From positions 124,001 through 188,000 of the forward strand of contig NZ_JACXYU010000008.1 in assembly GCF_014779715.1 (NCBI RefSeq): a DNA stretch of 64,000 nucleotides, read 5' to 3'. Shown one piece after another: positions 518 to 15,446 of the stretch; within the stretch, counting starts at the first letter, position 1, and every line of letters begins with the position of its first letter. The notes beneath the pieces are model-generated. The model made no database searches, was not told the origin of the DNA, and was given only the letters and a program-made list of their open reading frames with translations. The position numbers and the translations under genes were made by a program. This stretch comes from Streptomyces chumphonensis. GTDB taxonomy: Bacteria > Actinomycetota > Actinomycetes > Streptomycetales > Streptomycetaceae.

Positions 518-2668
518 GTGACCCCCAACCCCGCATCCGAACCGGCCTCCGGCCGTGTGTCCCTGGCCAAGTCGCCCACCCGCAGGAAGCCGGCCGCAGG
601 GCGGGGCGGGCCACCGCTGGACTGGGCCGCCACCCACGGCCCTGTCTCCGGTGCCGTGTCCGCCGCCACCGGCGCCGGCGCACTCGCCCTCCTCGGAGCC
701 GCCACCGGCATGCCGGCGGGCTGGCCCCTCCTCGTCGGCGCCGCCGGAGCCCTCGGGCACGGCATCGCCCACAGCCTGATTCGCCGCATGACCGCCCGCA
801 CGCTGGCCACCCGCGCCACCTCATGGCTGCTGGCGGGCGGCTGGACGAGCTGGGCCATCGCCACGGACCCCCTTTCCTGGACCGCCGTCGGCACCCTGGC
901 CGCGCTCGGAGTCGGGATCGGGGCCGCCGCGACCAACGCCGCCGTCCACGAAGAGGTTGCCGAGGAAGAACGCCTCTCCGCCCAGGCCCGGGAGGCGGCA
1001 CGGGAGCTGTCGGCCGAGCGGCGGGCCGTCGCCGCCGAATGGAGCGACCGCATCGCCCGCGTCACCGGCTTCCAGGCCCGCGTCTTCGCCGTCGAGTCCT
1101 GGGCCAGCGGCGCCGGGTTCTCCCTGGCCGCCGAACTCCCTGGAGACGGCGCCACCTGGGACCGCATCCGCGCCAGGGCACGGGCTCTGGCGGCCGACGC
1201 GCGGTTGCCGCGCGGCTGCGTCGTCCACGTGGAGGAAGGCGACGTTCAAGGTCGCGTCGTCCTCGACGTCCCCACCCGCAACGTCATGGCCGACACTGTC
1301 TCCTACCCAAGCGACTACGGGCCGTTGTCGGTGCTCACGGGCATTCCCTGGGGGCTGCTGCCGCACTCCGAGCCCGTCACGCTGCACCTGCGGGAAGCCT
1401 GTGCGCTGATCCTGGGCCCGCCCGGGTCGGGCAAGTCCACCTTCCTCGATGCGGTCCTCGCGGGCTTCGCCCGCTGCACCGACGTCCTGACCTTCGTCAT
1501 CGACCTCAAGCAAGGCGCCGTAGGTATGCCCTGGGCCCGCCCCTACCTTGAAGCCGAAGGGCTCCTACCGCCCGTCTCCGGCTACCCCGCAGCGCCGCAG
1601 GGGGTGCGGCCGGGCGTCGACTGGATCGCGGGCACCACCACGGAAGCCATCGTCATGCTTCAGACGGTGCTGGCGATCAACAAGGCCCGTCAGGCCGCTT
1701 ACCAACAGCTCATGGCCCAGGCCAATACGACCCTGCTCCCCGTCAGCCCTCGCCTGCCGCAGATCATGGTCGTCGTCGACGAGGGTGCCGAAGCGCTCTC
1801 CGCCGGGCCCCGAGACAAGGAGCGCCGTCGGGTGGGTGAGCTGATCCGGGAGGGCATGCGCACCACTCGTGCTATGGGCATCCGCTTCGTCCTGACGGCC
1901 GTGGACGGCAACCTGTCGGCCATCGGTGACACCCAGGTCCGCAAGTTCTCGCCTGTCGGCGTCGCGCTCACCTCTGGCGAGTCCGCCGGAAACAACACCG
2001 GCAAGCTCTTCCCCGGAGCCAGGATCGACACCGGGCAGTTGAACGAGGCCGGTGCCGGCGTCATCGGCAACGCCCGCCGCGAGGGCTTCGCCCCCACGCC
2101 GTTCAAGGGCTGGCACACCACGCCCGGCATGGTTCGCGATGTCGTCATCGCCACCAGCAACCGCCGCCCCACCCTGGACGACGTGTCCGTGCGGGCTGCC
2201 GGGGACGCCTACGCCCAACGCTGGAGTCCCGAGCGGGCCGGATGGATGTGGAACGACGGGCTCATCCCGGCCACGACCACCGACAAGGCGCCGGAGAAGG
2301 ACGCCCCGGGCGAGCGGCGGCCGGGGCTGAACCTGGCCTACAAGCGACGCGAGGACGAGGCCGACGCCGCCGTCGCCCGCCTCATGGACGCCATCGACAG
2401 CCGGTACGGCACCACCCCCGAACCCAGCCCGAGTCAGGCCATGCCGGAGACCGCGTCGGGACACGAGGGGCCCGAGTGGCTCACTGCCGCGATGGCCGCG
2501 ATCAAGGACGCGGGCGCCGCCGGGATGAAGCCGGGCGCCGTCGCGGACCTGGTCGGCCGAAGCCGCCAGGCCGTCCGCGATGCCCTCAAGGCAGCGGCTG
2601 AACGAGGCGAGCTGGTCTACCGCGACAACGGCCCGCACTCCGTCTACGTCCACCCCGATCACGCCTGA
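518..2668 (+). CDS. traB: TraB/FtsK-type conjugative DNA translocase
   Basis: Hexameric double-stranded DNA pump that moves the element between mycelia at the septal membrane. In this 716-residue protein I see hydrophobic membrane segments between about residues 45 and 140, a charged helical stretch, Walker A GPPGSGKS at about 300-307 and Walker B IMVVVDE at about 416-422. A C-terminal winged-helix segment follows (about 650-710, with GAVADLVGRSRQAVRDAL), resembling the FtsK gamma DNA-recognition domain. In the TraB family that domain binds short repeats in the clt locus, and a heptamer array lies directly downstream here. The GTG at 518 follows AAGGGAG. The ATG-like extension from 470 overlaps the terminator and was rejected. 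Spread-protein genes follow, as usual. Confidence 0.9.
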   Translation: MTPNPASEPASGRVSLAKSPTRRKPAAGRGGPPLDWAATHGPVSGAVSAATGAGALALLGAATGMPAGWPLLVGAAGALGHGIAHSLIRRMTARTLATRATSWLLAGGWTSWAIATDPLSWTAVGTLAALGVGIGAAATNAAVHEEVAEEERLSAQAREAARELSAERRAVAAEWSDRIARVTGFQARVFAVESWASGAGFSLAAELPGDGATWDRIRARARALAADARLPRGCVVHVEEGDVQGRVVLDVPTRNVMADTVSYPSDYGPLSVLTGIPWGLLPHSEPVTLHLREACALILGPPGSGKSTFLDAVLAGFARCTDVLTFVIDLKQGAVGMPWARPYLEAEGLLPPVSGYPAAPQGVRPGVDWIAGTTTEAIVMLQTVLAINKARQAAYQQLMAQANTTLLPVSPRLPQIMVVVDEGAEALSAGPRDKERRRVGELIREGMRTTRAMGIRFVLTAVDGNLSAIGDTQVRKFSPVGVALTSGESAGNNTGKLFPGARIDTGQLNEAGAGVIGNARREGFAPTPFKGWHTTPGMVRDVVIATSNRRPTLDDVSVRAAGDAYAQRWSPERAGWMWNDGLIPATTTDKAPEKDAPGERRPGLNLAYKRREDEADAAVARLMDAIDSRYGTTPEPSPSQAMPETASGHEGPEWLTAAMAAIKDAGAAGMKPGAVADLVGRSRQAVRDALKAAAERGELVYRDNGPHSVYVHPDHA

Positions 2669-2686
2669 GAACGCCTCACACAGGGC

Positions 2687-2805
2687 TACTGGCTACTGCC
2701 TACCGGCAACCTGCCACTAGGCAGTAAACGGCCCTCAGAAGGCTCCCTGAGCCTCTTCAACAGGGCATTTGCCAGTAGCCACTAGCCAGTAGTCACTGAC
2801 CACTA
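2687..2805. repeat. Heptamer array downstream of traB (candidate clt/TRS locus)
   Basis: Ten 7-bp units related to GCCAGTA occur in strict head-to-tail phase. Three are in reverse orientation at 2687-2707 (TACTGGC, TACTGCC, TACCGGC). Two are forward at 2713-2726 (GCCACTA, GGCAGTA). Five are forward at 2771-2805 (GCCAGTA, GCCACTA, GCCAGTA, GTCACTG, ACCACTA). The block fills the traB-spdB intergenic region. TraB proteins of Streptomyces plasmids recognise short repeats near traB, so this is the expected place for the transfer locus. The repeats are seen directly; the function is inferred. Confidence 0.75.
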
Positions 2806-2881
2806 GCAACACGCACCGTGACCCCCGGCTGGGCGGCACCCACACCCCGGGTGCCGCCCAGCCGCGTCGAAAGGACCCCGT

Positions 2882-3358
2882 GTGCACGCCGACACCCGCC
2901 ACCAGATCACCACCCTCGCCCTCCACCAACTCCCCGCCCCGGCGCCCGTCATGCAGCTCCGCGAACTCCCGCCCGGCGTCGAAGTCGTCACCCTTCCCGG
3001 CGGCATCCGCACCCTCGCCTACACCCAGCCCTCCGCCGCGCCCGCGCCGCAGACGAGTCCGGCCGGGGCGCCGATCCCGACCTGGGCCAAGACGACGGCC
3101 CTCCTCACCCCCACGGTCGGTGGCGGCATCACCGTCGCCGGTATCGGACTCTCCTACGCCGCCCCGGGACTGATCGCCATGAGCCATGCCCTGTGGGCCG
3201 CCGCCGCCCTCGTCGCCGCAGCCGCCGTCGCCGTCCCCCTCCTGCTGACCGCTGCCCGCCGTCGCCCCGACGCGACGGCGACGCCGCCTCACATCACGCA
3301 GAACATCTCCGCCACCGGCCTCTTCGGCCGCGCCAACGGCACCATCAACCACCACTGA
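2882..3358 (+). CDS. spdB: SpdB-like plasmid-spread membrane protein
   Basis: A 158-residue protein with a hydrophilic N-terminal half and two hydrophobic segments at about residues 70-95 and 100-122. The tail is basic and then Asn/His-rich (ending GTINHH). This layout and its place right after traB match SpdB-type proteins, which help spread transferred DNA through septa of the recipient mycelium. The GTG at 2882 follows GAAAGGA at normal spacing. Sequence identity of Spd proteins is low across the group, so the call rests mainly on topology and neighbours. Confidence 0.65.
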   Translation: MHADTRHQITTLALHQLPAPAPVMQLRELPPGVEVVTLPGGIRTLAYTQPSAAPAPQTSPAGAPIPTWAKTTALLTPTVGGGITVAGIGLSYAAPGLIAMSHALWAAAALVAAAAVAVPLLLTAARRRPDATATPPHITQNISATGLFGRANGTINHH

Positions 3359-3369
3359 GAGAGGCACGC

Positions 3370-3633
3370 ATGCGACTGCGCATCCGCCGCATCACCTGGC
3401 CCCGGCGGGCCATCGTTCTCGCCGACACCCCGCGTCCCGACTGCCGCGACTGCGGCGGGGAGGGCGGCAACGCCTACGACTACGGCGAGCCCTTCACCGG
3501 CGAGTACGCCGGCACCGACTGGGAGCCCTGCCCCTGCTGGCACGAGGACCGCCGCTGGGTTCTGATCCCGCTCCCCCGCCGCCGGCCCCGCCCCACCTCC
3601 CGCAGCGGCTACTGCGACGAGCCGCCCTTCTAG
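3370..3633 (+). CDS. Small Cys-rich element protein
   Basis: An 87-residue basic protein with a CRDCGG pair and a later CPCW motif, which together could bind one zinc ion. The start ATG at 3370 lies 11 bases after the spdB-like stop behind a GAGAGAGG ribosome-binding site, so the two are co-transcribed. I do not recognise a named family. Comparable short zinc-ribbon-like proteins occur between the spread and replication genes of other Streptomyces elements, with no assigned role. Confidence 0.6.
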   Translation: MRLRIRRITWPRRAIVLADTPRPDCRDCGGEGGNAYDYGEPFTGEYAGTDWEPCPCWHEDRRWVLIPLPRRRPRPTSRSGYCDEPPF

Positions 3634-3715
3634 CTACGCCGAGGGCGGCCCCCTCACGCCAATGACCGGGGCCGCCCTCGTCTCCCAGCACTCAACAGAA
3701 CTGGAGACCTCCAGC

Positions 3716-4612
3716 ATGACCCATGACCGCAAAACCGTGCTGCTCTCCGCAGCACTGGACGCCGCCGAACGCGGCTGGCCCGTCCACCCCCTGCGTCCCT
3801 GCGGCAAGCGTCCCGCCCTCCACGGCGAGAAGGCGTGCACCGGCCAGGGCATCTGCGCCGGTGGGCACGTGAAGTGGGAGCAGCGGGCCACCACCGACCC
3901 GGGGCGCATCGAGCGCTGCTGGGCGACGGCGCCGTTCAACGTCGGCATCGCCACCGGGCCGGCCGGGCTCGTTGTCGTCGACCTCGACTTGCCCAAGGAC
4001 GACAGCAAGACGGGCACGCCGTGCGGCGTGACGAACTTCCGTGCGCTCTGCGAGCGCGCCGGGCAGCCCGTCCCCGCCACGCGCACCGTCCGGACCGCGC
4101 GCGGCGGGAAGCACCTGTACTTCCGCGCCCCCGATCGGGTCCAGCTCCGCAACACCCAGGACGAACTCGCCGGCAACATCGACACCCGGGCCTGGGGCGG
4201 CTACGTCGTCGCCCCGGGCAGCAATATCCCCGAGGGCACCTACCAGCTCATCGACGACACCCCCGTCACGGAACTCCCGGCATGGCTGCTGGACGCCCTC
4301 ACCCCGGCGCCGCCGCGGCCGGTCCGGCTGGCCGTGGCCCGCTGCGGGAACCGGCTCGCCGACGCCGTCCTGGAACGGGAGACCGCCGCCGTTGCCGCCA
4401 CCGCTGAGGGCGGCAGGAACACGCAGCTGCTGGCCAGCGCCCGCGCCGTGGGCCGCTTCGTCGCATGGGGCGACCTCCCCCGCCACCAGGTCGAGGAGGC
4501 TTTTCAAGGGGCAGGGGAGGCGGCCGGCCTGGCACCGCAGGAGTGCCGCGCCACCATCCGCAGCGCCCTGAACTGGTCCATCCGCACCGCCCGCCCCCGG
4601 GAGACGGCATGA
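3716..4612 (+). CDS. Bifunctional DNA primase/polymerase (prim-pol)
   Basis: Archaeo-eukaryotic-type primase-polymerase that would prime and start replication of the excised element. The 298-residue protein opens with the family pattern AALDAAERGWPVHPLRP and has GHVKWEQRAT. It carries the catalytic aspartate pair in VVVDLDLPK (about residues 86-94) and the nucleotide-site motif GGKHLYF. The C-terminal 100 residues look like the helical extension that accompanies AICE prim-pols. The ATG at 3716 follows GGAG, and upstream ATGs in the frame lack a good site. It overlaps the next gene by four bases (ATGA), so the replication genes are translationally coupled. Confidence 0.88.
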   Translation: MTHDRKTVLLSAALDAAERGWPVHPLRPCGKRPALHGEKACTGQGICAGGHVKWEQRATTDPGRIERCWATAPFNVGIATGPAGLVVVDLDLPKDDSKTGTPCGVTNFRALCERAGQPVPATRTVRTARGGKHLYFRAPDRVQLRNTQDELAGNIDTRAWGGYVVAPGSNIPEGTYQLIDDTPVTELPAWLLDALTPAPPRPVRLAVARCGNRLADAVLERETAAVAATAEGGRNTQLLASARAVGRFVAWGDLPRHQVEEAFQGAGEAAGLAPQECRATIRSALNWSIRTARPRETA

Positions 4613-4971
4613 ACCACCAGACGCCGCCCCCCGCCCTGAAAAGCCCCACCCGGCGCCCCACCGGCCCGGCAGCCGCCGACACCACCCCGGCCGCGACGGC
4701 GGGTGGGGCGCCGAGGAACGCCGCCCGCAAGGGCGTCCTTTCAGCTCTTCGCCCTGACCCGCACCCGGGAGACGGACGCCACCCCGTCGCGTGGCTGCAC
4801 ATCACCGCCCCCGGACGCGGCACGATCCCCGTCGCGACGTCGACGTGCGCGTGCGGGCGGGACCGCAGTGCCGTCGGGCACCGCCAGGTCCTCGCCCTGG
4901 CCGAAGAGCACACCGCACACCGCACCCTCTGCCCGCTCCGCAACGCCCAGGAAGGACGGTCAGCCGCATGA
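4609..4971 (+). CDS. Small orphan protein between prim-pol and DUF3631
   Basis: A 120-residue protein with a Pro/Ala-rich, probably disordered first half. The second half holds WLHITAPG, a CACGRD segment and HRTLCPL, which suggest a small Cys/His metal site. Four-base ATGA overlaps on both sides place it firmly in the replication operon. I recognise no family. The context suggests an accessory role in replication or primase handling, but nothing in the sequence proves it. Confidence 0.65.
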   Translation: MNHQTPPPALKSPTRRPTGPAAADTTPAATAGGAPRNAARKGVLSALRPDPHPGDGRHPVAWLHITAPGRGTIPVATSTCACGRDRSAVGHRQVLALAEEHTAHRTLCPLRNAQEGRSAA

Positions 4972-6218
4972 CCGGCCCCAACGCCACCACCGCGCAGGCC
5001 ATCGACGGCGCCGCCCTGCTGGACGACGTCGAAGCCTTCCACCGCCGCTTCAACGTCTTCCCCCGCGAAGCCGCCTACGTCGCCGTCGCCCTGTGGGACG
5101 CCCACGCCCACCTCATCGACTGCTTCGACTCCACCCCGCGCATCGCGTTCCTCTCCCCCGAGCCGGGCTCGGGGAAGTCGCGGGCGCTGGAGATCGTGGA
5201 AACCCTCGTGCCGAACCGGCTGGTGGCCGCGCACGCCACCGCCAACGCCATGTACCGGGCCGTCGGCGACGGGGACCACCTGCCGACCGTGCTGTTCGAC
5301 GAAGTGGACACCATCTTCGGGCCCAAGGCCGGGGACAACGAGCCCCTGCGCGGCTTCATCAACGCAGGCCACCGCCGAGGCGTCGGCGTCCTGCGCTGCG
5401 TCGGGGACGGCTCCCACCAGGAAGCCAAGATGTTCGAGACGTTCTGCGCCGTCGCCATGGCCGGCCTCGGCTCCCTGCCGGACACGATCCTGAGCCGCTC
5501 GGTCATCATCCGCATGCGCAAGCGGGCCCCCAACGAGCACGTCGAGTCCTACCGGCTGCGCACCCACGAACCCCAGGGCCACGCCCTGCGGGACCGGCTC
5601 GCCGCCTGGGCCGACCAGGTCCGCGACCAGGTCGACGGCGCCTGGCCCACGATGCCCGAGGGCATCAGCGACCGGCCCGCCGACGTGTGGGAACCCCTCC
5701 TCGCCGTCGCCGACGCCGCCGGAGGCCACTGGCCCCAGCGGGCCCGCGCCGCCTGCGTCGAGCTGGTCCACGCCGCCCGGGAAGGCGACAAGGCGTCCGT
5801 CGGCGTCCAACTCCTCACCGACCTGCGCGACCAGGTCTTCTGCGGAGCCGACCGCATGCCCACCGCCGCCATCCTCGAATGCCTCCACGCCATCGAGGAC
5901 GCCCCCTGGACCGACATGGACGGCAACGGCAAAGCCCTCACCGCCCGCGGCCTCTCCAAGCTCCTCGGGGACTACGTCACCAGCGAGAACAAGCCCATCC
6001 GGCCGCGATCCATCCGAACCGCCGGCGGAGTCCCCAAGGGCTACTACGCCGAAGACCTCACCGACGCCTGGCTTCGCTACTGCCCCCACCCCCCTGAGAA
6101 GTCCGCTACATCCGCTACACCCGCTACACACCAGGTCAACGGGGGTGCGGATGTAGCGGAAGAGCTCCCCGGAATCCGCTACATCCACCCCGCAACCGCT
6201 ACCGGCACCGTCGCCTGA
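4968..6218 (+). CDS. DUF3631 P-loop ATPase of the replication module
   Basis: A 416-residue AAA-like ATPase with Walker A PEPGSGKS near residue 65 and Walker B VLFDEVDTIF near residue 108. A DTILSRSVIIRMRKR segment has the position of sensor and arginine-finger residues. The C-terminal half matches DUF3631, the partner of prim-pols in phages and AICEs, probably a helicase or loader for replication initiation. The last 40 residues contain SATSATPAT, encoded by tandem TCCGCTACA nonamers, so a cis-acting array overlaps the coding end. It starts inside the stop of the previous gene (ATGA). No terminator follows directly. Confidence 0.85.
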   Translation: MTGPNATTAQAIDGAALLDDVEAFHRRFNVFPREAAYVAVALWDAHAHLIDCFDSTPRIAFLSPEPGSGKSRALEIVETLVPNRLVAAHATANAMYRAVGDGDHLPTVLFDEVDTIFGPKAGDNEPLRGFINAGHRRGVGVLRCVGDGSHQEAKMFETFCAVAMAGLGSLPDTILSRSVIIRMRKRAPNEHVESYRLRTHEPQGHALRDRLAAWADQVRDQVDGAWPTMPEGISDRPADVWEPLLAVADAAGGHWPQRARAACVELVHAAREGDKASVGVQLLTDLRDQVFCGADRMPTAAILECLHAIEDAPWTDMDGNGKALTARGLSKLLGDYVTSENKPIRPRSIRTAGGVPKGYYAEDLTDAWLRYCPHPPEKSATSATPATHQVNGGADVAEELPGIRYIHPATATGTVA

Positions 6219-6342
6219 CCACCGACACCCACCCCCAGCCGCACGCCCCGGCGTAGCGGCACCTATCCGCTACATCCCGCCCATCCGCTACACCCACACC
6301 GGCCCTGACCTGCGGTGTAGCGGATGTAGCGGATGTAGCGGC
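6102..6342. repeat. TCCGCTACA nonamer array (candidate replication origin)
   Basis: Three head-to-tail copies (TCCGCTACA, TCCGCTACA, CCCGCTACA) fill 6102-6128. Three head-to-tail inverted copies (TGTAGCGGA, TGTAGCGGA, TGTAGCGGC) fill 6316-6342. Between them are single copies at 6152-6160 (inverted), 6175-6183, 6266-6274 and 6284-6292 (forward), plus degenerate ones. The block runs from the end of the DUF3631 gene to just before xis. Phased iterons beside a prim-pol/ATPase pair suggest the origin or a copy-control site; this is inference. Confidence 0.75.
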
Positions 6343-6401
6343 ACCCACAGACGGGGGAAGCGCGAAGCCCCCACCCGAGCCTCGGAAACAGGAGTCGCGT
6401 C

Positions 6402-6590
6402 ATGGCACGCACCCAGATGCTCAAGCTCCCCGAAGTCCTCGAAGAGATCGGCATGAGCCGCGCCGCCTTCTACCGCATGCGCGCCCGTGGCAAGGCGCCC
6501 CGCATTCGCAAGCTCCCCAACGGCCAGGTTCGTATCAGCCGGAAGGACCTGGACATGTGGTGGGAGCGCTGCGAGCAGAGCGCCGCGTAG
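6402..6590 (+). CDS. xis: Excisionase-like MerR/Xis winged-helix protein
   Basis: A 62-residue DNA-binding protein of the AlpA/excisionase type. LPEVLEEIGMSRAAFYRMR forms the helix-turn-helix and a basic wing follows (KLPNGQVRIS). Such proteins bend the attachment site so that the integrase favours excision. The ATG at 6402 follows a GGAG-type site, and the gene lies 66 bases before the integrase, the usual neighbour. The nonamer array upstream could also serve as its binding region. Confidence 0.88.
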   Translation: MARTQMLKLPEVLEEIGMSRAAFYRMRARGKAPRIRKLPNGQVRISRKDLDMWWERCEQSAA

Positions 6591-6611
6591 GCCGCCGGAA
6601 CCCGCCGACGA

Positions 6612-6642
6612 GGGGGCCCGCCATCAGGAGGCGGGCCCCCTT
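6612..6642 (+). terminator. Hairpin between xis and int
   Basis: Perfect 11-bp stem (GGGGGCCCGCC and complement, loop ATCAGGA) at 6612-6640 followed by TTCCTC. It ends 16 bases before the integrase start, so xis and int transcription may be partly uncoupled. Confidence 0.55.
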
Positions 6643-6656
6643 CCTCATGGAGACAC

Positions 6657-8063
6657 ATGCTCACGTATGACGTAGACATCTGGTCGATCCGAAAGCGCGC
6701 GGGGCGGCCGAAGCCGTACGAGCTGCGCTGGCGGGTCGGCGCCCGCCCACACTCCAAGAGCTTCAAGCTCAAGCCCCAGGCTGACGGTCGCCGCTCGGAA
6801 CTCATGGCGGCGCTCCGTGACCGTGAACAGTTCGACGAGGACACCGGCCTGCCGGCACGTGAACTCGCCGCCCTCAACTCTCCCAGCTGGTACGAGCACG
6901 CCACCGAATACGTGCTCGTGAAGTGGTCCCGAGCCGCAGCCAAGCACCGCGCCGGGATCGCGGAAGCGCTGGCGGTGGTCATTCCGACGCTCGTCACGAC
7001 GCATCGTGGGGCGCCGGAACAGAGGGCGATGCGGGCCGCGCTCTACCAGTGGGCGTTTCGCGCCGTCCTCGGACCCGACGGCAAGCTGGTCGCTCGCCAT
7101 GTCGCCGAGGAGGCCCCGGACGACATCTCGGCTGCGCTCGCATGGCTTTCTCAGCATTCGATGAAGGTGAAGGAGTTGGAGAATCCGGCGCTGCTTCGTC
7201 CTGCTCTCGAAGCGCTCTCCCGCCGCTTGGATGGTCAGCAGGCGGCGGAGAACACGGCTCGAAGAAAGCGCATGGTGCTCAGCAACTTCCTGCGCTACAC
7301 CGTGGAGGAAAAGGGGCTGCTGTCCGCCAACCCTCTTCGTCGGGTCGACTGGACGCCGCCGCAGACGGAAGACGAGATCGACTTCCGGTACGTCCCAGGC
7401 CCCGCGCTGGCCCGCCGGCTGATCCACGCCGTGCGGGACTCCGGCCCACGCGGCCGGCACCTTGCCGCCTTCTTCGGGTGCCTCTACTACGCCGCCATGC
7501 GCCCTGGTGAAATCGCTTCGCTGAAGGTCTCGCACTGCACCTTGCCGCCGGATACACCTGCGGCGGCCGAGCAGTGGGGTGAACTGCTGTTGGGCGAGAG
7601 TCGGCCGGAGGTGGGCGGCGGCTGGACAGATGACGGCGCGTCATACGAGGCCCGGGGCCTGAAGCGTCGGGCGAGGACGGCGACTCGGTCCGTGCCCGTC
7701 CCGCCCATCCTCGTGACGATGCTCCGGGACCACATCGCCGCGTACGGCACCGCCGAGGACGGTCGGCTGTTCAGGGCCGCCCAGGGCGGCCGGGTGCGCT
7801 CAACCGAGTACTGCGAGTTGTGGGACGGCGCCCGCAGCGCGGTGCTGTCGGAGCAGGAGGCGAAAACGCCTCTGGCTTCGGTGCCCTACTCGCTCCGCCA
7901 TGCGGGGGTCTCGCTGTGGATCAAGGCGGGCGTGGACCCGGCTGAGGTCGCCGAGCGGGCGGGGCACAGCATCGCTGTGCTGTACCGCTTCTACGCGAAG
8001 ATTCTCAAGGGCGACCAGGCCCGCTCGAACCGGCTCATCGCCCAGGGCCTCGCCGAGGAGTAG
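6657..8063 (+). CDS. int: Tyrosine recombinase/integrase of element 1
   Basis: A 468-residue site-specific recombinase for integration and excision of element 1. The catalytic domain shows the box I arginine in MRPGEIASLK, PYSLRHAG with R414/H415, RAGHS and the nucleophile region YRFYAK (Tyr 446). The first histidine of the H-x-x-R motif is a tyrosine here, as in a recognised AICE integrase subgroup (PYDLRH type). The N-terminal 180 residues contain the arm- and core-binding segments. The ATG at 6657 follows GGAG. The gene reads toward the tRNA-Ser fragment at 8204, the likely attachment site. Confidence 0.93.
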   Translation: MLTYDVDIWSIRKRAGRPKPYELRWRVGARPHSKSFKLKPQADGRRSELMAALRDREQFDEDTGLPARELAALNSPSWYEHATEYVLVKWSRAAAKHRAGIAEALAVVIPTLVTTHRGAPEQRAMRAALYQWAFRAVLGPDGKLVARHVAEEAPDDISAALAWLSQHSMKVKELENPALLRPALEALSRRLDGQQAAENTARRKRMVLSNFLRYTVEEKGLLSANPLRRVDWTPPQTEDEIDFRYVPGPALARRLIHAVRDSGPRGRHLAAFFGCLYYAAMRPGEIASLKVSHCTLPPDTPAAAEQWGELLLGESRPEVGGGWTDDGASYEARGLKRRARTATRSVPVPPILVTMLRDHIAAYGTAEDGRLFRAAQGGRVRSTEYCELWDGARSAVLSEQEAKTPLASVPYSLRHAGVSLWIKAGVDPAEVAERAGHSIAVLYRFYAKILKGDQARSNRLIAQGLAEE

Positions 8064-8301: not shown

Positions 8302-9480
8302 TCAGCGATCCGTCTCGGCCTCACCGTCTGTCGTCTCGCCGTCGTCGTGCCCTCCCCGTGCCCTTCTGGGTTCCGCGTGCCCCGTGAACCAGGCGTCCGA
8401 GGCGTCGGCGACTTCGGAGTCACGGCCTGCCACCGGTCGAGCGTAGTGGCGCGTCGTCACACTCGCGTTGGAGTGCCCGAGCCGATGTGCCGCCGTCATC
8501 ACTCCGTACCGGTCGGCGACCCATGTGCCGTGCGAGGCCCGGAGGTCGTGCGGGGTGAGGTCCGTCAGTCCGGCCGCCTCCACCGCCGGGTCGAAGTACG
8601 CCTTGCGCCACTGGTTGTAGCGCAGTGCCCCACCCTTGGAGTTCGTGAACAGCAGCGTGTCACCCTCTCCCGGCAACCGGTCGAGGTGTGCTGCCAATCG
8701 CTCCATGAGGGACGGCGCCAGGGTCAGCGTTCGCTTCTGGTGCGACTTCGGGGTGTCGAAGACGAGGGCGCCGTTGGCTTCGGCCAGATTCTCGTCAACG
8801 ACGACTCTCCGAGCGGCGACGTCGATGTCGGACCGACGCAGCGCGAAGGCTTCGCCCACCCTCAGCCCCGCGAAGGCCAAGAGCGCGATCAGCAGGTCGT
8901 TCGGGTACGCCGCGTTGGCCACGACGCGTGATGCCTCCTGCGGCGTGAGGATATGGGGGTCGGTCTGCGGCATCCTCGGCAGCCGAACGCCCCGGCACGG
9001 CGTCGCCGCGATCAACCCGTTGTCCACGGCCGACGCCATGATCTGCGACAGCACGCGGTACGCCTGACGGATGCGGGACGGACTGAGGCCGGCCGACTTC
9101 ATCGCGGCGACCCACTCCGCAACGGTGATCGGCCGAACGGCAGCCAGCTCCCGACTGCCGAGCGCCGGGTTGATGCGCGAGACGATCAGCGACCGGTACG
9201 ACGCCCGCGTCTTGTGCTTGAGCTGCGGAGCCACCGAGGCCAGCCACCGCGCACCCCACGCCTCTACCGTCGTCTGTCCCTGCTCAGGGTCGAGCCACCG
9301 GCCCTCTTCGATCTCCACCCGCTTCTTCGCGAGCCACAGATCGGCATCCGTCACGGTGGCGAACGTCCGGTCCGCCGGGCGGAGAACCCCGTCCGGACCC
9401 GGGTACCGCACCTGATAGCGGCCGGATGGGAGCTTCCGTACACGGCCGAAGCCACGGCGCCGCTTGCGCTGGGGAGGCAT
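8302..9480 (-). CDS. int: Tyrosine recombinase/integrase of element 2
   Basis: A 392-residue integrase that joins the element to the 3' end of tRNA-Ser. It has the N-terminal AP2-like arm-binding region (GRYQVRYPGPDG), a SAM-like core-binding domain and a catalytic domain with AGLRVGEAFALR (box I Arg). PHDLRASHGTW (H-x-x-R), LGHSN and HYARP with the nucleophilic tyrosine follow. The ATG at 9480 overlaps the xis stop (TGATG), so the pair is coupled; the longer reading from 9516 would run through xis and was rejected. The gene ends 37 bases from the attachment core, as expected. Confidence 0.94.
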   Translation of the reverse strand: MPPQRKRRRGFGRVRKLPSGRYQVRYPGPDGVLRPADRTFATVTDADLWLAKKRVEIEEGRWLDPEQGQTTVEAWGARWLASVAPQLKHKTRASYRSLIVSRINPALGSRELAAVRPITVAEWVAAMKSAGLSPSRIRQAYRVLSQIMASAVDNGLIAATPCRGVRLPRMPQTDPHILTPQEASRVVANAAYPNDLLIALLAFAGLRVGEAFALRRSDIDVAARRVVVDENLAEANGALVFDTPKSHQKRTLTLAPSLMERLAAHLDRLPGEGDTLLFTNSKGGALRYNQWRKAYFDPAVEAAGLTDLTPHDLRASHGTWVADRYGVMTAAHRLGHSNASVTTRHYARPVAGRDSEVADASDAWFTGHAEPRRARGGHDDGETTDGEAETDR

Positions 9481-9692
9481 CAGACCACCGCCCGGAAGCG
9501 ACGCCGAGAGCGGCAAGCAACGGGAGCGACCGTGTGCTCCCGGACGTAGTCACCGACCGCACTCTCAGGGATGCGGACATGGCGGCCCACCTTCACGAAG
9601 GTGATACGCCGCTCTTCCACCAGCCGTCGCGGGAAGCGGATCGAGGTCCCCAACCGATCGGCGACCTCAGCCACGGTGAGCAGTCGGTCCAT
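9480..9692 (-). CDS. xis: Excisionase-like helix-turn-helix protein
   Basis: A 70-residue protein with the excisionase fold: LLTVAEVADRLGTSIRFPRRL as helix-turn-helix, then a wing (FVKVGRHVRIPESAV) and a basic tail. It would direct the integrase toward excision. Its ATG at 9692 overlaps the repSA stop by one base, and its stop overlaps the int start. This gives the repSA-xis-int coupling of pSAM2-type elements, in which replication and excision are switched on together. The longer frame from 9857 overlaps repSA and was not used. Confidence 0.9.
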   Translation of the reverse strand: MDRLLTVAEVADRLGTSIRFPRRLVEERRITFVKVGRHVRIPESAVGDYVREHTVAPVACRSRRRFRAVV

Positions 9693-11038
9693 CAGCCATC
9701 TCCTTCCGTGCGCTGTGCGTTCAGTACGTCGGTGAGCCAGCGTTCGCCGTCGGTCAGGCCGGTTCCGGCGTAGGCCCAGTGGGCGAGGACGAGCGTGGAG
9801 TCGGCCAGCGCCTGGCCGTCGTCGCCGTCGGCAAGTGCGGCTTGGAGGCGTCGCCACTCGGCTCGGGCGTTGCGCAGCGTCGTGAGGGTGGTCGAGTAGC
9901 GGCGGGTCTTGGTGGAGAAGTGGCCGCGGAAGCCGAGCATGTGGGCCCAGGCACGGAGCCGGAGGTGTTCGAGGTCCTGGCGGGCACCCAGCTCCCAGCA
10001 GGTGCGGATCAGGCGGCGTGCGTGATCGGTGATCTCGGCGTCTGCCAGCTCGGCCAGAAAGCGGATGCGGCGGTCAAGGGTGCCGGTCGCTGTCTCGGCG
10101 CCCTTGGTCGCGTACTTGGCGATGTAGCCCGCTACGGCGCGATCGGTCAGCTCGGTCCCGCCGTCGAAGTCGGCCGAGCGGATGACGCGGACGTCGAGTT
10201 GGCGCCCGAAGACGAACGTGTGCTCACGCCCGTCGATGACCGGGCCGACGACGCGGGCAGCGGAAGCGGCGGCCCGGATGGCATCGGTCAACAACTCGGC
10301 GGTTGCCCACGAGGGTGGGGGCGTGTGCCCACCGTCCGGGCCGTCGAGGCGGATGACGGCGTGGAAGTGGACGGCGCCGCGCCGCTGGTACTCGGCGACC
10401 TTGGCGAAGGAGACGCGCGCGAAGCGGCGGAAGGCGCGTTGGATGAGCCCGGCGCGCTTGGCGATCTCCCGGCGGAGGTAGATGGAGAAGCGGCGCCACA
10501 GGGCCCCGGCGTGGGCGTTCCAGAGCACTGCCGCTTCGTAGTCGTACCGTTCCGCGTCCAGCGGCGTGCCGAGGGCAGGGTCGTCGGGTGCGTGGACGGT
10601 GCCGCAGCGGCAGGCGGAGCGGCTGCTCGGTCGGTTGTGGACGGGTCCGAAGCTGGGAGCGGTGAAGGTGGCGAAGACGCGTGGGTGGGCGGCGACCTCT
10701 TCGGGGGTGCCCTTGCCGCCGCGCAGTCCGGCGGTGATCAGGTGGTAGGTGTCGCGGCGGTAGGTCTCGGCGCAGGTGGCGCACCGGGTGGTGCGGCGGT
10801 TGTTGCAGCGGACGAGCAGGTGCCCGGCGGGCAGGGCGGTCGAGTCGAGGTGGTGCAGGACGGCGCCGATCTCACCGGTGGCCGTGTCGAGACGGTGTTC
10901 GGTGCGGTGGCCGTCGAGCCGGATGGGCCGGGCGCACCCGCCGAGGGTGCCGAGCTGCCGGACGAGGCCGGGCAGTTGCCCGTACCGGGCGAGACGGTTC
11001 AGCTCCGTGGGCGGGGGAGCGGTGTCACGGGCGATGAT
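9692..11038 (-). CDS. repSA: RepSA-type rolling-circle replication initiator
   Basis: Initiator that nicks the element origin for rolling-circle replication after excision. I translated the frame upstream of the first GTG (10528) and found it continues as a typical RepSA. It has LARYGQLPGLVRQLGTLGGC, two Cys pairs (CATCAETY and CRCGTVH) and the HUH motif VHFHAVIRLDG near residue 224. A downstream YIAKYATKG segment carries the likely catalytic tyrosine. Total length is about 448 residues, normal for the family. The expected start position holds ATC, six bases after a perfect AAGGAG, with no ATG or GTG nearby; see findings. The stop overlaps the xis start. Confidence 0.88.
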   Translation of the reverse strand: MIARDTAPPPTELNRLARYGQLPGLVRQLGTLGGCARPIRLDGHRTEHRLDTATGEIGAVLHHLDSTALPAGHLLVRCNNRRTTRCATCAETYRRDTYHLITAGLRGGKGTPEEVAAHPRVFATFTAPSFGPVHNRPSSRSACRCGTVHAPDDPALGTPLDAERYDYEAAVLWNAHAGALWRRFSIYLRREIAKRAGLIQRAFRRFARVSFAKVAEYQRRGAVHFHAVIRLDGPDGGHTPPPSWATAELLTDAIRAAASAARVVGPVIDGREHTFVFGRQLDVRVIRSADFDGGTELTDRAVAGYIAKYATKGAETATGTLDRRIRFLAELADAEITDHARRLIRTCWELGARQDLEHLRLRAWAHMLGFRGHFSTKTRRYSTTLTTLRNARAEWRRLQAALADGDDGQALADSTLVLAHWAYAGTGLTDGERWLTDVLNAQRTEGDG

Positions 11039-11129
11039 GGTCTTCTCCTTGTCTGGCTGGTGTCGGGCGAGGGGTTGGCCCGTCGGGGCGGCGGATGCTT
11101 GGCGGTATCGAGGCCGCCCCGACGGGCGC

Positions 11130-11414
11130 TCAGCGGTTGCGCTGGGAGGTGAGCAGCGAGCGCAGGACGACTCCGGTGATCGCGACGGAGACGGCGGTGA
11201 CGGCGACGGCCGTCAGGAGGGCGGTCAGCACGACGCCGCCCAGGAGCACGCCGACCACGGCGCCACTCCGGCCGGAGAGCAGCGACGGCGACGCAGTCCT
11301 GGTAGCCGCCGGTATCGGGCTCGCGGTCTGGCAGGAGCAGAGGCTCGGGTGCACGGCGGCGTGCGGTTGAGCCGGTACCTGCGGCGGGGTCGGCAGTTCG
11401 GGGCGGAAGAACAT
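11130..11414 (-). CDS. spdD: SpdD-like spread protein
   Basis: A 94-residue protein starting MFFRPELPTPPQ, the signature opening of Streptomyces SpdD proteins. A Pro/Ala/His-rich linker follows, then a long hydrophobic region (about residues 50-85, VVGVLLGGVVLTALLTAVAV) that makes one or two membrane spans, and a basic tail. It helps intramycelial spread of transferred DNA. The ATG at 11414 follows AAAGGA. The longer in-frame reading from 11753 only overlaps neighbouring genes. Confidence 0.82.
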   Translation of the reverse strand: MFFRPELPTPPQVPAQPHAAVHPSLCSCQTASPIPAATRTASPSLLSGRSGAVVGVLLGGVVLTALLTAVAVTAVSVAITGVVLRSLLTSQRNR

Positions 11415-11428
11415 GGCGGGGTGTCCTT

Positions 11429-11626
11429 TCACTCGTTGGTCGTGCCGTTGATGACGTCGACCCCGGTCCGGGTGCCGGAGTCGATGGCGGGGGCCAGGAA
11501 GGTCTGGTTGAGGTAGAAGCCGAAGAGGGCGATGACCACGACGACCCAGGTGCGGACGCCGAGGAACTTCACGGCGGCCCAGGCGGTGACGCCCAGGACC
11601 AGGACGAGGGGCAGGGAGACGGTCAC
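11429..11626 (-). CDS. Small membrane protein of the transfer operon
   Basis: A 65-residue protein with two hydrophobic stretches (LPLVLVLGVTAWAAV and TWVVVVIALFGFYLNQ), then a polar tail ending INGTTNE. The GTG at 11626 follows GGAG and lies 15 bases downstream of the preceding gene, in a tight operon. The same small two-span protein is usual between SpdD and the mobile-element transfer protein in such elements. Its role in spreading is presumed only from position. Confidence 0.7.
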   Translation of the reverse strand: MTVSLPLVLVLGVTAWAAVKFLGVRTWVVVVIALFGFYLNQTFLAPAIDSGTRTGVDVINGTTNE

Positions 11627-11640
11627 GGCGAGAGCTCCTG

Positions 11641-11832
11641 TCAGCGGACGGGGCAGCGGTGGGTACGGGCAGCCAATTCGGCGGCGGCGCGGGAGTCGTA
11701 GTCGGCGGAGAAGCCGCAGCGCGGGGCGGTGCACGCGGCGGTGTGCTTCTCACGGCCCCGTCCGTCGTAGGCGGTGCCGACCTGTACGGGGCCGATGCGG
11801 AGTACGCGGCGGAAGCGGCGGTTGGCGGTCAT
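11641..11832 (-). CDS. Mobile element transfer protein (small zinc-finger type)
   Basis: A 63-residue basic protein matching the family annotated as mobile element transfer protein in Streptomyces: RRFRRVLRIGPVQVGTAYDG, then CTAPRCGFSADYDSR and a final RTHRCPVR. The two cysteines, the histidine and the last cysteine could form a C2HC zinc site. I chose the ATG at 11832, eight bases after GGAG; the GTG at 11838 is too close to that site. The exact function is unknown. Confidence 0.8.
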   Translation of the reverse strand: MTANRRFRRVLRIGPVQVGTAYDGRGREKHTAACTAPRCGFSADYDSRAAAELAARTHRCPVR

Positions 11833-11834
11833 GG

Positions 11835-12014
11835 TCACGCCTCCTGATCGAGGTTGTGGGCGGGGTAGAGGGCGAGGATTCGTGCGGCTTCGGTGTCGTC
11901 ACCGACGCGTGCGGCGGCTTCCTCGGCCAGGAGCCGGGCCAGGACGAGGCGCCCGGCGGTGGCCATCTCGTCGGCGGCGTCGAGGAAGTCGGCGACGTCG
12001 TCATCAGCGGTCAT
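11835..12014 (-). CDS. Small acidic helical protein
   Basis: A 59-residue acidic protein (MTADDDVADFLDAADE) that is almost wholly alpha-helical and rich in alanine. Its stop lies just before the start of the next gene, and its start lies 10 bases after the DUF2637 stop, so it is an internal member of the transfer operon. I recognise no family; similar short acidic proteins occur here in related elements. Confidence 0.65.
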   Translation of the reverse strand: MTADDDVADFLDAADEMATAGRLVLARLLAEEAAARVGDDTEAARILALYPAHNLDQEA

Positions 12015-12024
12015 GACAGGCCCT

Positions 12025-12630
12025 TCACGGGAGCTGGGCGGCGAGTTGCTGGGCGACTGACGGCGGGACCCCGAGGCGGGCACGGAGGGTGTCCGCGTCG
12101 ATGGGTCGTCCGGTGCGTTCCTGGTGAGCGGTGGCGACCTTGCGCGCGTGCTCGACAAGGGCGGCGGGAACGTCGACCCGAACCGGTTCCGGGTCAGGAA
12201 CGGCGGGGAGCTTGCTCGGCTCGGAAGGTGGGACGAGGGAGACGCCGGGCTGTTCTTCGCGCTCCGGCGCCGGGCTGTGGGCCAGGAGCGTGCCACCGAG
12301 GAAGGCGACGGCCGGCCATCCGGCGACGAGGATGCGCAGCCAGGCCGGGACGTCGTCCAGGTCGAGGAGTCCGGCGGTGGCGATGTTGGCCCCCAACGAG
12401 GCCACCAGGGCAACCAGGAACCAGCACCAGGCGGAAGCCGTGTTCTGTCCGGTTCGCAGGCGTCGCCAGGCGGCGACCAGGAGCAGGTCGACGGAGACGG
12501 GGTAGGCCCAGGCCATCCAGCCGTGCTGTCCGGCGGCTTCGGCGAGGTCGTGGAGGTGCGCGAAGGACAGGGCACCGGCGATCACCGCTTGGATCAGTAC
12601 GGCGTCGAGCCGGGCCAGCGAGCGGCGCAT
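12025..12630 (-). CDS. DUF2637 membrane protein
   Basis: A 201-residue protein with four hydrophobic segments in the first 110 residues, among them VLIQAVIAGALSFAHLHDLA and WCWFLVALVASLGANIATAG. A soluble C-terminal part follows that contains a helix-turn-helix-like segment (RPIDADTLRARLGVPPSVA). This is the DUF2637 arrangement found in nearly all Streptomyces conjugative elements next to traB. It probably assists DNA transfer at the membrane. The ATG at 12630 is preceded by GGAGG. Confidence 0.82.
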   Translation of the reverse strand: MRRSLARLDAVLIQAVIAGALSFAHLHDLAEAAGQHGWMAWAYPVSVDLLLVAAWRRLRTGQNTASAWCWFLVALVASLGANIATAGLLDLDDVPAWLRILVAGWPAVAFLGGTLLAHSPAPEREEQPGVSLVPPSEPSKLPAVPDPEPVRVDVPAALVEHARKVATAHQERTGRPIDADTLRARLGVPPSVAQQLAAQLP

Positions 12631-12712
12631 CGCGGGACCTCCTTTCGGTTTCGGGCATGGCGGGGTAAGGACGTGGCGCGATGAGGCCGCGCCGACCGGG
12701 CGGAACGGGAGA

Positions 12713-14092
12713 TCAGCCGGTGACGGGCCGGGGCTTGGTCAGCGGCATGGGCGGGGCCGCAGCCGGGCGAACAGCGGTAGCGGGCCGGAACGGAGCGAGG
12801 GCCGGGACGTCGGGGACCAGTTCGGCCGTCTTCTGGCAGACGGTGGCTGCGTCACTCAGGGAGAGGTACGGGGTGCGGATGCGGGTCCAGCCGCCGGAGG
12901 TGTTACCGGCCACGGCGAGGCCGGGCCGTTCCGGGGCGATGGCGCAGGCCGCGCCGACGGCGTCGGGGGCGATGTCCCCGAGGGCCATCTTGGCGGAGGC
13001 TTCGTCGTTGACGCGGTGGCAGACGCGGCCGGTGAGCTGGGCCCTGAGCATGGTCGCGCCCTTGCCCAGCTCGGCCCCGAACCGCTGGCCGCAGACTTCC
13101 AGGTGGATGCCCGCCGCACGGCCGAGCTGGGCAAGGCGGATGAGCTGGGTGACCATCGCGTCCCGTCGTTCCTCGTCCTTCTTCGTCGCGGTGAGGAACA
13201 GTTCGGCCACCTCGTCGACGAACAGCACGACGGGCACCGGACGGTCGGCTTCGGGCAGGCCCCAGACGTCGGAAGTGATCTCTTCGTCCGGGGTGTCGGG
13301 CGCGATGCCCTGCCGTGCCTTGACCAGGTCGTAGCGGTCCTCCATCTCCGTTACGAGGGCCGACAGCAACTCGGCGGCTTCGTCCGGGTCGGTGGCCAGG
13401 GCGGACAGACGTGCTGAGAACGGCGCCAGTTCCACCCCGCGCTTGCAGTCGATCCCAGCGAGGGCGACCGGCTGACGGGCGAGCCCGGCCACCAGGTTCC
13501 GCAGGTACATGGACTTACCCGACAGCGTCGCCCCGAGGGTGAGCTGATGCGGCACGGTCAGGTAGTCGCGCACGAACGGCGTGGCATCTTCCCGCAGCGC
13601 GACCGTCACCTTCAGCAGCTCGGCCGGTGCCGACTTCGGCATCCGCACCCGGGTGAGGACGTCGAAGCCGACGAGCCGCAGTTCCACCACACCCGGCTTG
13701 ACCGGCGTCACGTGGACGGCGTGTACGCCCCAGGCGTGACGCAGCCGTTCGGCCGAGGCGGCGAAGTCGGCGGGCTCCTGCCCCGGTGCCAGCCGCAGCC
13801 GAAGCCGAAGCCCGGTGGACGTCGGCCGCATGAGGCCCCGCCGAGGCGGAACCGGCCGCACCTCACGACGAGTCGTGGCGTGCACGGCGAGAGCCCGCAG
13901 CCGGGTCGGGGCCACCGTCAGCCCACAGGACTCCATCACCGACCCGTACGAGGCCAGTAGCCGCCCGACCGACAGCGGCAGGCCGACGGTGTTCCAGTAG
14001 AGGGCCGGGTGACGGACTCGGGCCCAGGCGGCCCCGCCGCCGAGCGCGACGAGGGGGCCACCCAGCTCCAGTAGGTGCAGCAGCTCGGACAC
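12713..14092 (-). CDS. traSA: TraSA-type FtsK/SpoIIIE DNA translocase
   Basis: The main transfer pump of element 2, 459 residues, shorter than TraB of element 1. A short hydrophobic N-terminus is followed by the ATPase domain with Walker A GATLSGKSMY at about residue 187 and Walker B VPVVLFVDEVAELF. RAAGIHLEVCGQRFGAELG comes next, typical of FtsK-like pumps of AICEs. The C-terminal tail is Pro/Ala-rich with no obvious winged-helix domain, so DNA recognition must differ from element 1. The GTG at 14092 lies two bases after the preceding stop, so the longer reading from 14257 was rejected. Confidence 0.88.
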   Translation of the reverse strand: MSELLHLLELGGPLVALGGGAAWARVRHPALYWNTVGLPLSVGRLLASYGSVMESCGLTVAPTRLRALAVHATTRREVRPVPPRRGLMRPTSTGLRLRLRLAPGQEPADFAASAERLRHAWGVHAVHVTPVKPGVVELRLVGFDVLTRVRMPKSAPAELLKVTVALREDATPFVRDYLTVPHQLTLGATLSGKSMYLRNLVAGLARQPVALAGIDCKRGVELAPFSARLSALATDPDEAAELLSALVTEMEDRYDLVKARQGIAPDTPDEEITSDVWGLPEADRPVPVVLFVDEVAELFLTATKKDEERRDAMVTQLIRLAQLGRAAGIHLEVCGQRFGAELGKGATMLRAQLTGRVCHRVNDEASAKMALGDIAPDAVGAACAIAPERPGLAVAGNTSGGWTRIRTPYLSLSDAATVCQKTAELVPDVPALAPFRPATAVRPAAAPPMPLTKPRPVTG

Positions 14093-14093
14093 C

Positions 14094-14450
14094 TCAGACC
14101 CCCGCACCGGCCGCAGCGGGGACGGCGCCAGCGGTGACGGCGGCGGCCCGGTAGGCGATGCCGTGCCGCTGCTGGCCGTTGAACACCGACTCCCACGGCC
14201 GGGCGACCAGGCCGGGCAGCGCGACCGGCGAGCCGAGGGCCAGCCCCTCCACGACACCGCTCTCGGGAACGGTGACGTGGATGAGCGAGGACTCCCCTTC
14301 GTCGATGTAGACCACGCCGACCTTCATCAGCGCCTCGCCGCTCACGGCGTCCTTCGCGATCTCTCCCGTCTGGCGGTCCCGCACCTTCGGCTGGGGAGCT
14401 TCGGTCAGGAGAATCGTCGCGGTGGAGGTCTCAACTCGGATGGAACGCAC
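14094..14450 (-). CDS. SCO3933-like regulatory protein, first gene of the transfer operon
   Basis: A 118-residue protein of the SCO3933 family: it starts RSIRVETSTATILL and has PKVRDRQTGEIAKD, then a beta-rich core. I chose the GTG at 14450 because AAGGAG lies nine bases upstream and the family starts at this point; an ATG at 14483 would add 11 residues. It heads the minus-strand transfer operon and its stop nearly touches the traSA start. The family is called regulatory in databases, but a mechanism is not known to me. Confidence 0.75.
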   Translation of the reverse strand: MRSIRVETSTATILLTEAPQPKVRDRQTGEIAKDAVSGEALMKVGVVYIDEGESSLIHVTVPESGVVEGLALGSPVALPGLVARPWESVFNGQQRHGIAYRAAAVTAGAVPAAAGAGV

Positions 14451-14493
14451 GGGATGTGTCTCCTTCGTGTCAGCCTCAGCCATTAACACCTAG

Positions 14494-14503
14494 TCGTCTA
14501 GAC
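14494..14503. promoter_or_regulatory. Operator-like site TCGTCTAGAC before the transfer operon
   Basis: Contains the 8-bp palindrome GTCTAGAC, 44 bases upstream of the transfer operon start. It matches the half-site TCTAGACGA found before the GntR gene, so it is a likely GntR operator. Confidence 0.55.
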
Positions 14504-14565
14504 AAGATGCGCCAGGCCGAGAGGTTCGACCGGGAACGCGAACCACTGTGCCACAGGACTTGCCC

Positions 14566-14581
14566 ACTCGTCTATACGAGT
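14566..14581. promoter_or_regulatory. Inverted repeat ACTCGT-CTAT-ACGAGT
   Basis: Perfect 6-bp arms with a 4-base spacer in the region between the transfer operon and the end of the GntR gene. It shares ACGAGTAT with the site at 16021-16033. Probable second operator of the element regulator. Confidence 0.55.
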
Positions 14582-14657
14582 ATGCCTCTCGGTGTGTACG
14601 AGTTCGGCGGCGGCGAACCTCCCGAGGCGTCGTCAACACCCGTGCGACACCCGCTTC

Positions 14658-15446
14658 CTACGTGGCAGGCAGCTGGTAGGACAGGACGTAGGCGTCCGCA
14701 GCCATCACCGTGTCGCACACCTCCACGGCTCGCCCCTTGGTGTCGTAAGCCGTCCGCACGAGGTGGATGACCGGCACTCCGGAGGCCAGGCGCAGCGTCT
14801 TGATCTCCTGCGGGGAGGGCATCCGGGCGCGGATCTCCTCCTCGAAGTGGTCGAGCTTGTGCCCCAGCTCCTCCAGCCGGGCGTAGATGCCGCCGGGGCC
14901 GGGGTTCGGTTGGGCGATCGGCGTATCGCGGGCCAGGTCCAGCGGCAGGTACGACGTGGCGAACTCCACCGGCCGCCCGTCGAGCAGGTACCGCCGACGC
15001 CGCGCGAGCACCCGCCGGGGCGCACCCAGCCGGGCGGAGACGTCAGCCGACGGCCGTTCCTCCTTGACCTCCAGGTTGTCCACCTCGGGCCGACTCCCCG
15101 CGGCTTCGGCCTCCATGGTGAAGGCCGACTTACCCTGCTCACGGTGACGCCGGGCGAACCGGTCGGAGGCCAGCCGACGGACCGGCGGACGCGGCCGGAC
15201 GAAGACACCCTTGCCGTGCTCCGAGGAGACCAGCCCCTCACTCTGGAGCATCGACAGCGCGTTGCGGACCGTCATCCGGGACACCCCGAAGTGATCCACC
15301 AACTCCGACTCCGAGGGCAGCTTGGCGCCCTCCGCGAAGCGGCCCTTGTCGATGGCCTCCCGCAGGTGATCAGCGATCTGTCGAAACACGGCGCGATCAC
15401 TGGTCGGGTCCAGCGAGCCGAGCAGGCCGGAAGGAAGAGCGACCAT
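14658..15446 (-). CDS. GntR/HutC-family repressor (KorSA-like)
   Basis: A 262-residue regulator with an N-terminal winged helix (FRQIADHLREAIDKG, SESELVDHFGVSRMTVRNAL) and a C-terminal UTRA/HutC ligand-binding domain (about residues 95-255). In pSAM2 the matching protein KorSA represses replication and transfer by binding short repeats, and this gene holds the same place. The ATG at 15446 follows AAAGGAG. A TATCTAGACGAG motif at 15462-15473, just upstream, suggests autorepression. Related motifs precede the transfer operon and the ATPase gene. Confidence 0.87.
   Translation of the reverse strand: MVALPSGLLGSLDPTSDRAVFRQIADHLREAIDKGRFAEGAKLPSESELVDHFGVSRMTVRNALSMLQSEGLVSSEHGKGVFVRPRPPVRRLASDRFARRHREQGKSAFTMEAEAAGSRPEVDNLEVKEERPSADVSARLGAPRRVLARRRRYLLDGRPVEFATSYLPLDLARDTPIAQPNPGPGGIYARLEELGHKLDHFEEEIRARMPSPQEIKTLRLASGVPVIHLVRTAYDTKGRAVEVCDTVMAADAYVLSYQLPAT

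Follow-up and report, generated by a model that had tools for sequence, protein, structure and literature searches.

A head-to-tail heptamer array behind traB, very probably a transfer site that varies with the recognition helix of its TraB

Introduction

Conjugation of the TraB type transfers DNA in double-stranded form, and exchange of chromosomal DNA on a large scale in Streptomyces is attributed to this process. In those Streptomyces plasmids that have been characterised, TraB is a hexamer that reads the repeats of the cis-acting locus of transfer (clt) with helix alpha-3 and moves double-stranded DNA. For pSVH1, TraB is described as a hexameric, FtsK-like protein that reads a repeated short motif through helix alpha-3 in the winged helix at its C-terminus (Vogelmann 2011, as relayed in PMC3583192, PMC4170104, and PMC12857230). 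The clt of pWTY27 lies at the 3' end of tra and just behind it, contains 7-bp direct TGACACC repeats, four of which were reported, binds the FtsK-like Tra protein, as seen by gel shift and by DNase I footprinting, and is needed for transfer (PMC3583192). A related case is FtsK-KOPS, where a short oriented motif, with sites of 8 bp, is read by the regulatory subdomain of the FtsK motor (PMC2680272). The sequence read by TraB is known for a minority of elements; at the locus described here, an array beside the gene would reveal the target of the reader.

Results

The window, that is, the whole stretch of 64,000 nucleotides analysed here, carries traB at 518 to 2668 on the plus strand (a GTG at 470 is a possible alternative start). 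Its product is a DNA translocase of the FtsK/SpoIIIE family with hydrophobic N-terminal stretches, matching Pfam PF01580 and AAA_29 above cut-off. A comparison with NCBIfam returned nothing above cut-off for this TraB, and it is not listed under plasmid_TraB (NF041214), for which the TraB of plasmid L139 scores 1015 bits (cut-off 800). The traB locus also occurs in a record of Streptomyces sp. JJ38 (L002), with 100% protein identity. The region from 518 to 8063 encodes traB, small proteins, a primase-polymerase (3716 to 4612, plus strand; Pfam PF09250, E 5.6e-48) that belongs to a replication module outside the putative clt, a DUF3631 protein, an HTH_17/AlpA-like protein, and an integrase whose Pfam match falls below cut-off, yet which aligns with annotated site-specific integrases. 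An integrase, replication genes, and an FtsK-like transfer gene occur side by side here, so that the region reads as an integrative and conjugative element of the actinomycete type. A second, pSAM2-like element (integrase, RepSA, DUF2637, FtsK-type tra, GntR) stands in tandem with the first at 8302 to 15446 on the minus strand; no repeat array was found directly behind its tra gene.

The C-terminal DNA-binding domain of TraB, residues 645 to 716 of the 716-residue reading, is encoded at 2450 to 2665 on the plus strand. It is a probable winged helix, as judged from HTH_23 and HTH_29 matches below the Pfam cut-offs; a profile search of solved structures with this domain gave no significant relative. 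Its columns hold the covariation with the array described below, centred on the recognition helix GRSRQAVRDAL (2552 to 2584, plus strand), of which positions 3, 5, and 6 (S, Q, and A) co-vary with the first three letters of the heptamer.

The gap at 2669 to 2881 begins directly 3' of traB (stop codon 2666 to 2668) and houses the heptamer array at 2687 to 2805. Direct reading of the sequence bears out the first-pass annotation in its count of ten heptamers behind traB, arranged as three reversed, two forward, and five forward. Block 1 (2687 to 2707, minus strand) consists of GCCAGTA at 2687 to 2693, GGCAGTA at 2694 to 2700, and GCCGGTA at 2701 to 2707; block 2 (2713 to 2726, plus strand) of GCCACTA at 2713 to 2719 and GGCAGTA at 2720 to 2726; and block 3 (2771 to 2805, plus strand) of GCCAGTA at 2771 to 2777, GCCACTA at 2778 to 2784, GCCAGTA at 2785 to 2791, GTCACTG at 2792 to 2798, and ACCACTA at 2799 to 2805. 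The exact 7-bp register claimed for the whole array holds within each block, and blocks 1 and 3, 84 bp apart, share a common phase, but block 2 is offset from both. Tandem Repeats Finder (TRF) reported period 7 for blocks 1 and 3. It also listed a 14-bp period in block 3; a higher-order period of 14 bp through alternating G and C at position 5 was tried and rejected (64 same, 45 different, p=0.5).

Several measures set the array apart from its surroundings. Identity at lag 7 of at least 0.667 over 39 bases occurs within the 64 kb only in the heptamer blocks, and the tandem heptamer pair GCCASTAGCCASTA, with at most one mismatch allowed, occurs in the 5.8-Mb genome only in the array. Phased perfect-core heptamers per 215 bp numbered 19 in the real sequence against a mean of 0.9 in shuffled gaps under the same loose two-strand count, which is inflated for the real sequence because the heptamer unit is quasi-palindromic; a strict scan for the ASTA core was used in its place. 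The array is not a product of chance.

Loci with related TraBs were gathered by two routes blind to the array, one using full TraB and the other the 72-residue C-terminal domain alone, and about 20 kb around each locus was examined where the contig allowed. The resulting set of 25 loci with the domain comprises the window, plasmid L007, and L089 to L111. A search for relatives with the same helix and a missing array found none: phased NNNASTA heptamers stand right after the traB stop in the window and all 24 others, and arrays of another kind accompany all 23 members of a sister group. The layout is mostly alike among the 25 loci, usually with two or three reversed units in a block, then two forward units at a distance of about 26 bp, and another three to six forward units roughly 50 to 60 bp beyond these. 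In several loci an extra reversed unit stands about 67 bp past the traB stop, L098 and L104 have fewer strict units, and L108, with a G-rich core, was scored by a relaxed pattern.

Across these loci the ASTA core is constant (position 5 being G or C), and the first three letters vary by locus, tracking the recognition helix. SRQ(A/T)VR goes with GCC at 8 loci, DRKTVR with CCC at 9, SREAVR or GRESVR with GGC at 3, and SRPAIR and SRLAVR with ACC at 2; single loci pair SRHGVR with TCC, NVKTVR with CCG, and NRKTVR with a mix of GCC and CCC. Triplets were scored solely in units with the ASTA core (L108 by the relaxed pattern), so that drift of the core is under-counted. Distances between triplets correlate with distances between helices (Mantel r=0.718, p=0.0002; 25 loci, with shared ancestry not fully removed) and far less with distances in the rest of TraB (r=0.116, p=0.13) or the rest of the domain (r=0.249, p=0.015). 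With the TraB body and the rest of the domain held constant, the partial correlation with the helix is 0.697 (p=0.0002), and in a scan of 66 domain columns the three strongest associations fall on helix positions 5, 3, and 6. This covariation test, which had been proposed together with the idea that the C-terminal winged helix of TraB reads the heptamers, strongly supports that idea at the level of sequence.

The pairing also holds between distant proteins. Among pairs whose TraB bodies are less than 60% identical, the triplet is identical in 32/32 with the same helix core and in 13 of the 175 with different helices. The body tree requires at least 10 triplet changes, and in independent contrasts all five pairs that differ in DRKTVR also differ in CCC, although five alone give p=0.0625. 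In L095, L096, and L101 the domain is joined to TraB bodies that share only 26 to 28% identity with that of the window where the two align, and here too the array matches the helix. At the other extreme, L090 and L091 occur together in genome G082; their TraB bodies are 87% identical, yet the first pairs SRQAVR with GCC and the second DRKTVR with CCC. The two loci look as if they were kept apart by address.

TraBs with other C-termini have different arrays, which argues that the array belongs to the C-terminal domain. The sister TraBs, with the helix GTTRQTVVGWLK, are about 47 to 50% identical to the TraB of the window (one of them 39%), and their 23 loci all have GACAAG arrays, one displaced by about 0.4 kb. 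The spacings of these arrays are 5, 7, or 12 bp in 143 of 148 cases; the 7-bp geometry is therefore no universal rule. GACAAG arrays were seen about 80 to 160 bp behind traB at L017 to L023, L039 to L049, and L059 to L064. L047/L115 had been considered as an exception, a sister TraB without an array behind it, and was discarded as such since the array is present about 0.4 kb further on. Still other TraB C-termini go with CCCACA or GTT/AAC arrays. The GTT/AAC arrays, made of triplet repeats, accompany TraBs with a VNRS(A/T)L helix at L114 (1 to 200 bp behind traB) and L008 (behind traB), and are candidates for transfer sites of extremely short period.

Replication genes and heptamers dissociate in both directions. 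Five loci (L138, L139, L115, L118, and L120) have a primase-polymerase and a DUF3631 protein 60 to 68% identical to those of the window, together with another TraB C-terminus and without heptamers. In plasmids L138 and L139 the identity of these two proteins is 61 to 68%, the integrase of L138 is 50% identical, and the repeats are CTCCCCA and TGACACC, respectively, with no heptamers in either. Conversely, in heptamer loci such as plasmid L007, L090, and L102, these replication genes were not matched within the stretch that was searched, though it may cover less than the whole element. A different array stays with the DUF3631 gene: 9-bp-phased CCGCTACA iterons, in both orientations, lie at 6102 to 6341 across the 3' end of that gene and the gap that follows it, and the same array accompanies DUF3631 in L092, L093, L096, L098, L100, L107, L118, L120, L138, and L139. 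It stays with DUF3631 whatever the TraB, is a better origin candidate than the heptamers, and is likely the replication origin of the element.

Discussion

What is the function of an array that is kept so faithfully behind traB? The heptamers, their constant place and layout, their covariation with the helix, and their independence from the replication genes were all computed here. The heptamers follow the TraB C-terminus and not the replication genes, which argues that they are very probably a clt and not an origin. We put the probability that the array is a clt bound by the C-terminal winged helix of TraB at about 0.9.

By analogy with the characterised Streptomyces plasmids, from which DNA binding, loading of the hexamer, and the part played in transfer are carried over, the C-terminal winged helix of TraB would bind the heptamers, with helix positions 3, 5, and 6 going with the first letters of the unit and the ASTA core remaining constant. 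The heptamers would gather several TraB subunits on the element's own double-stranded DNA, and the hexameric translocase would assemble at the array and pump the DNA of the element into the recipient. The reading geometry may be unlike that of known TraBs. As 7 bp correspond to about 240 degrees, or two thirds of a turn, three heptamers would cover two turns and place their readers at intervals of 120 degrees, an arrangement that would suit a ring. Tentatively, and with more doubt than confidence, the register might be viewed as a loading scaffold that matches the symmetry of the hexamer, combined with an exchangeable address code of a few helix residues that separates near-identical co-resident elements and makes chromosomal targets predictable.

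Three other functions were weighed against the clt. The array might be an operator through which TraB or another regulator controls the genes behind traB: it sits between traB and the next same-strand gene, and TraB binding could possibly have a double role. A separate regulator, however, would have to switch its specificity at every change of the TraB helix, there are as many as ten phased units, arranged in blocks that point either way, and a simple scan found no promoter-like site, which is weak evidence in Streptomyces. We regard an operator as very improbable.

Still less credit is due to a folded single strand or RNA structure, such as a hairpin origin or a terminator. In favour of the earlier suggestion that the inverted blocks could fold, the predicted fold is strong (z -5.75), and the free G/C position agrees across the dyad in 28 of 40 slots, where 23.3 would be expected (p=0.07), or in 31/40 when register ties are broken otherwise, a count without control. 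Inverted copies of any motif fold, however, and block 3 runs head to tail and needs no hairpin. The array region has no Rfam match and, by scan, no terminator-like site, and a hairpin would leave the covariation with a protein helix unexplained.

The first-pass alternative of a replication origin, with the heptamers as iterons bound by the replication proteins of the element, is just as implausible: phased heptamers do look iteron-like, the element likely replicates when excised, and the primase-polymerase gene lies about 0.9 kb downstream, but the two-way dissociation between heptamers and replication genes (L138 and L139 on one side, L007 and others on the other) and the 9-bp array that stays with DUF3631 tell against this reading, which was rejected.

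If the array is a clt, the natural pairs of helix and heptamer constitute a first recognition table (SRQ-GCC, DRK-CCC, SRE-GGC, SRP/SRL-ACC, SRH-TCC, and NVK-CCG). Such a table makes testable which chromosomal sites can be mobilised by an element and whether address separates elements that coexist. Furthermore, arrays of this kind offer a route to the clt of elements that have been annotated by their proteins alone.

Among the described systems, the clt of pWTY27 resembles the window array in having 7-bp repeats adjoining the tra gene, although the motifs differ. The first-pass contrast between a 7-bp unit here and 8-bp units in other plasmids is weaker on this point, since a 7-bp unit is already present in the footprinted pWTY27 clt (PMC3583192). 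The array of L139 has the pWTY27 motif TGACACC, which lies inside the footprinted stretch, in mostly irregular spacing with one head-to-tail pair; BLAST found no significant similarity between the TraBs of the window and L139. For pSVH1, an 8-bp motif and a 14-bp direct repeat are reported, whereas the window has 7-bp units without spacers within blocks, and no 8-bp unit of the pSVH1 type was found in its array. In pJV1 and pIJ101, too, the transfer locus with its clt contains repeats in direct and inverted orientation, but these measure 9 bp and 5 bp, respectively, and the pIJ101 clt lies near korB. KOPS sites are spread along the chromosome, whereas the window array is dense. Hence, clt repeats of 5, 7, 8, and 9 bp and alpha-3 recognition in pSVH1 are already known. 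New in the literature examined would be the unbroken head-to-tail 7-bp register, the conserved block layout, and the natural helix-to-heptamer table of 25 loci, part of which the pSVH1 study (Vogelmann 2011) may hold. In its place right behind tra and in its apparent recognition by helix alpha-3, the array agrees with the known clt sites.
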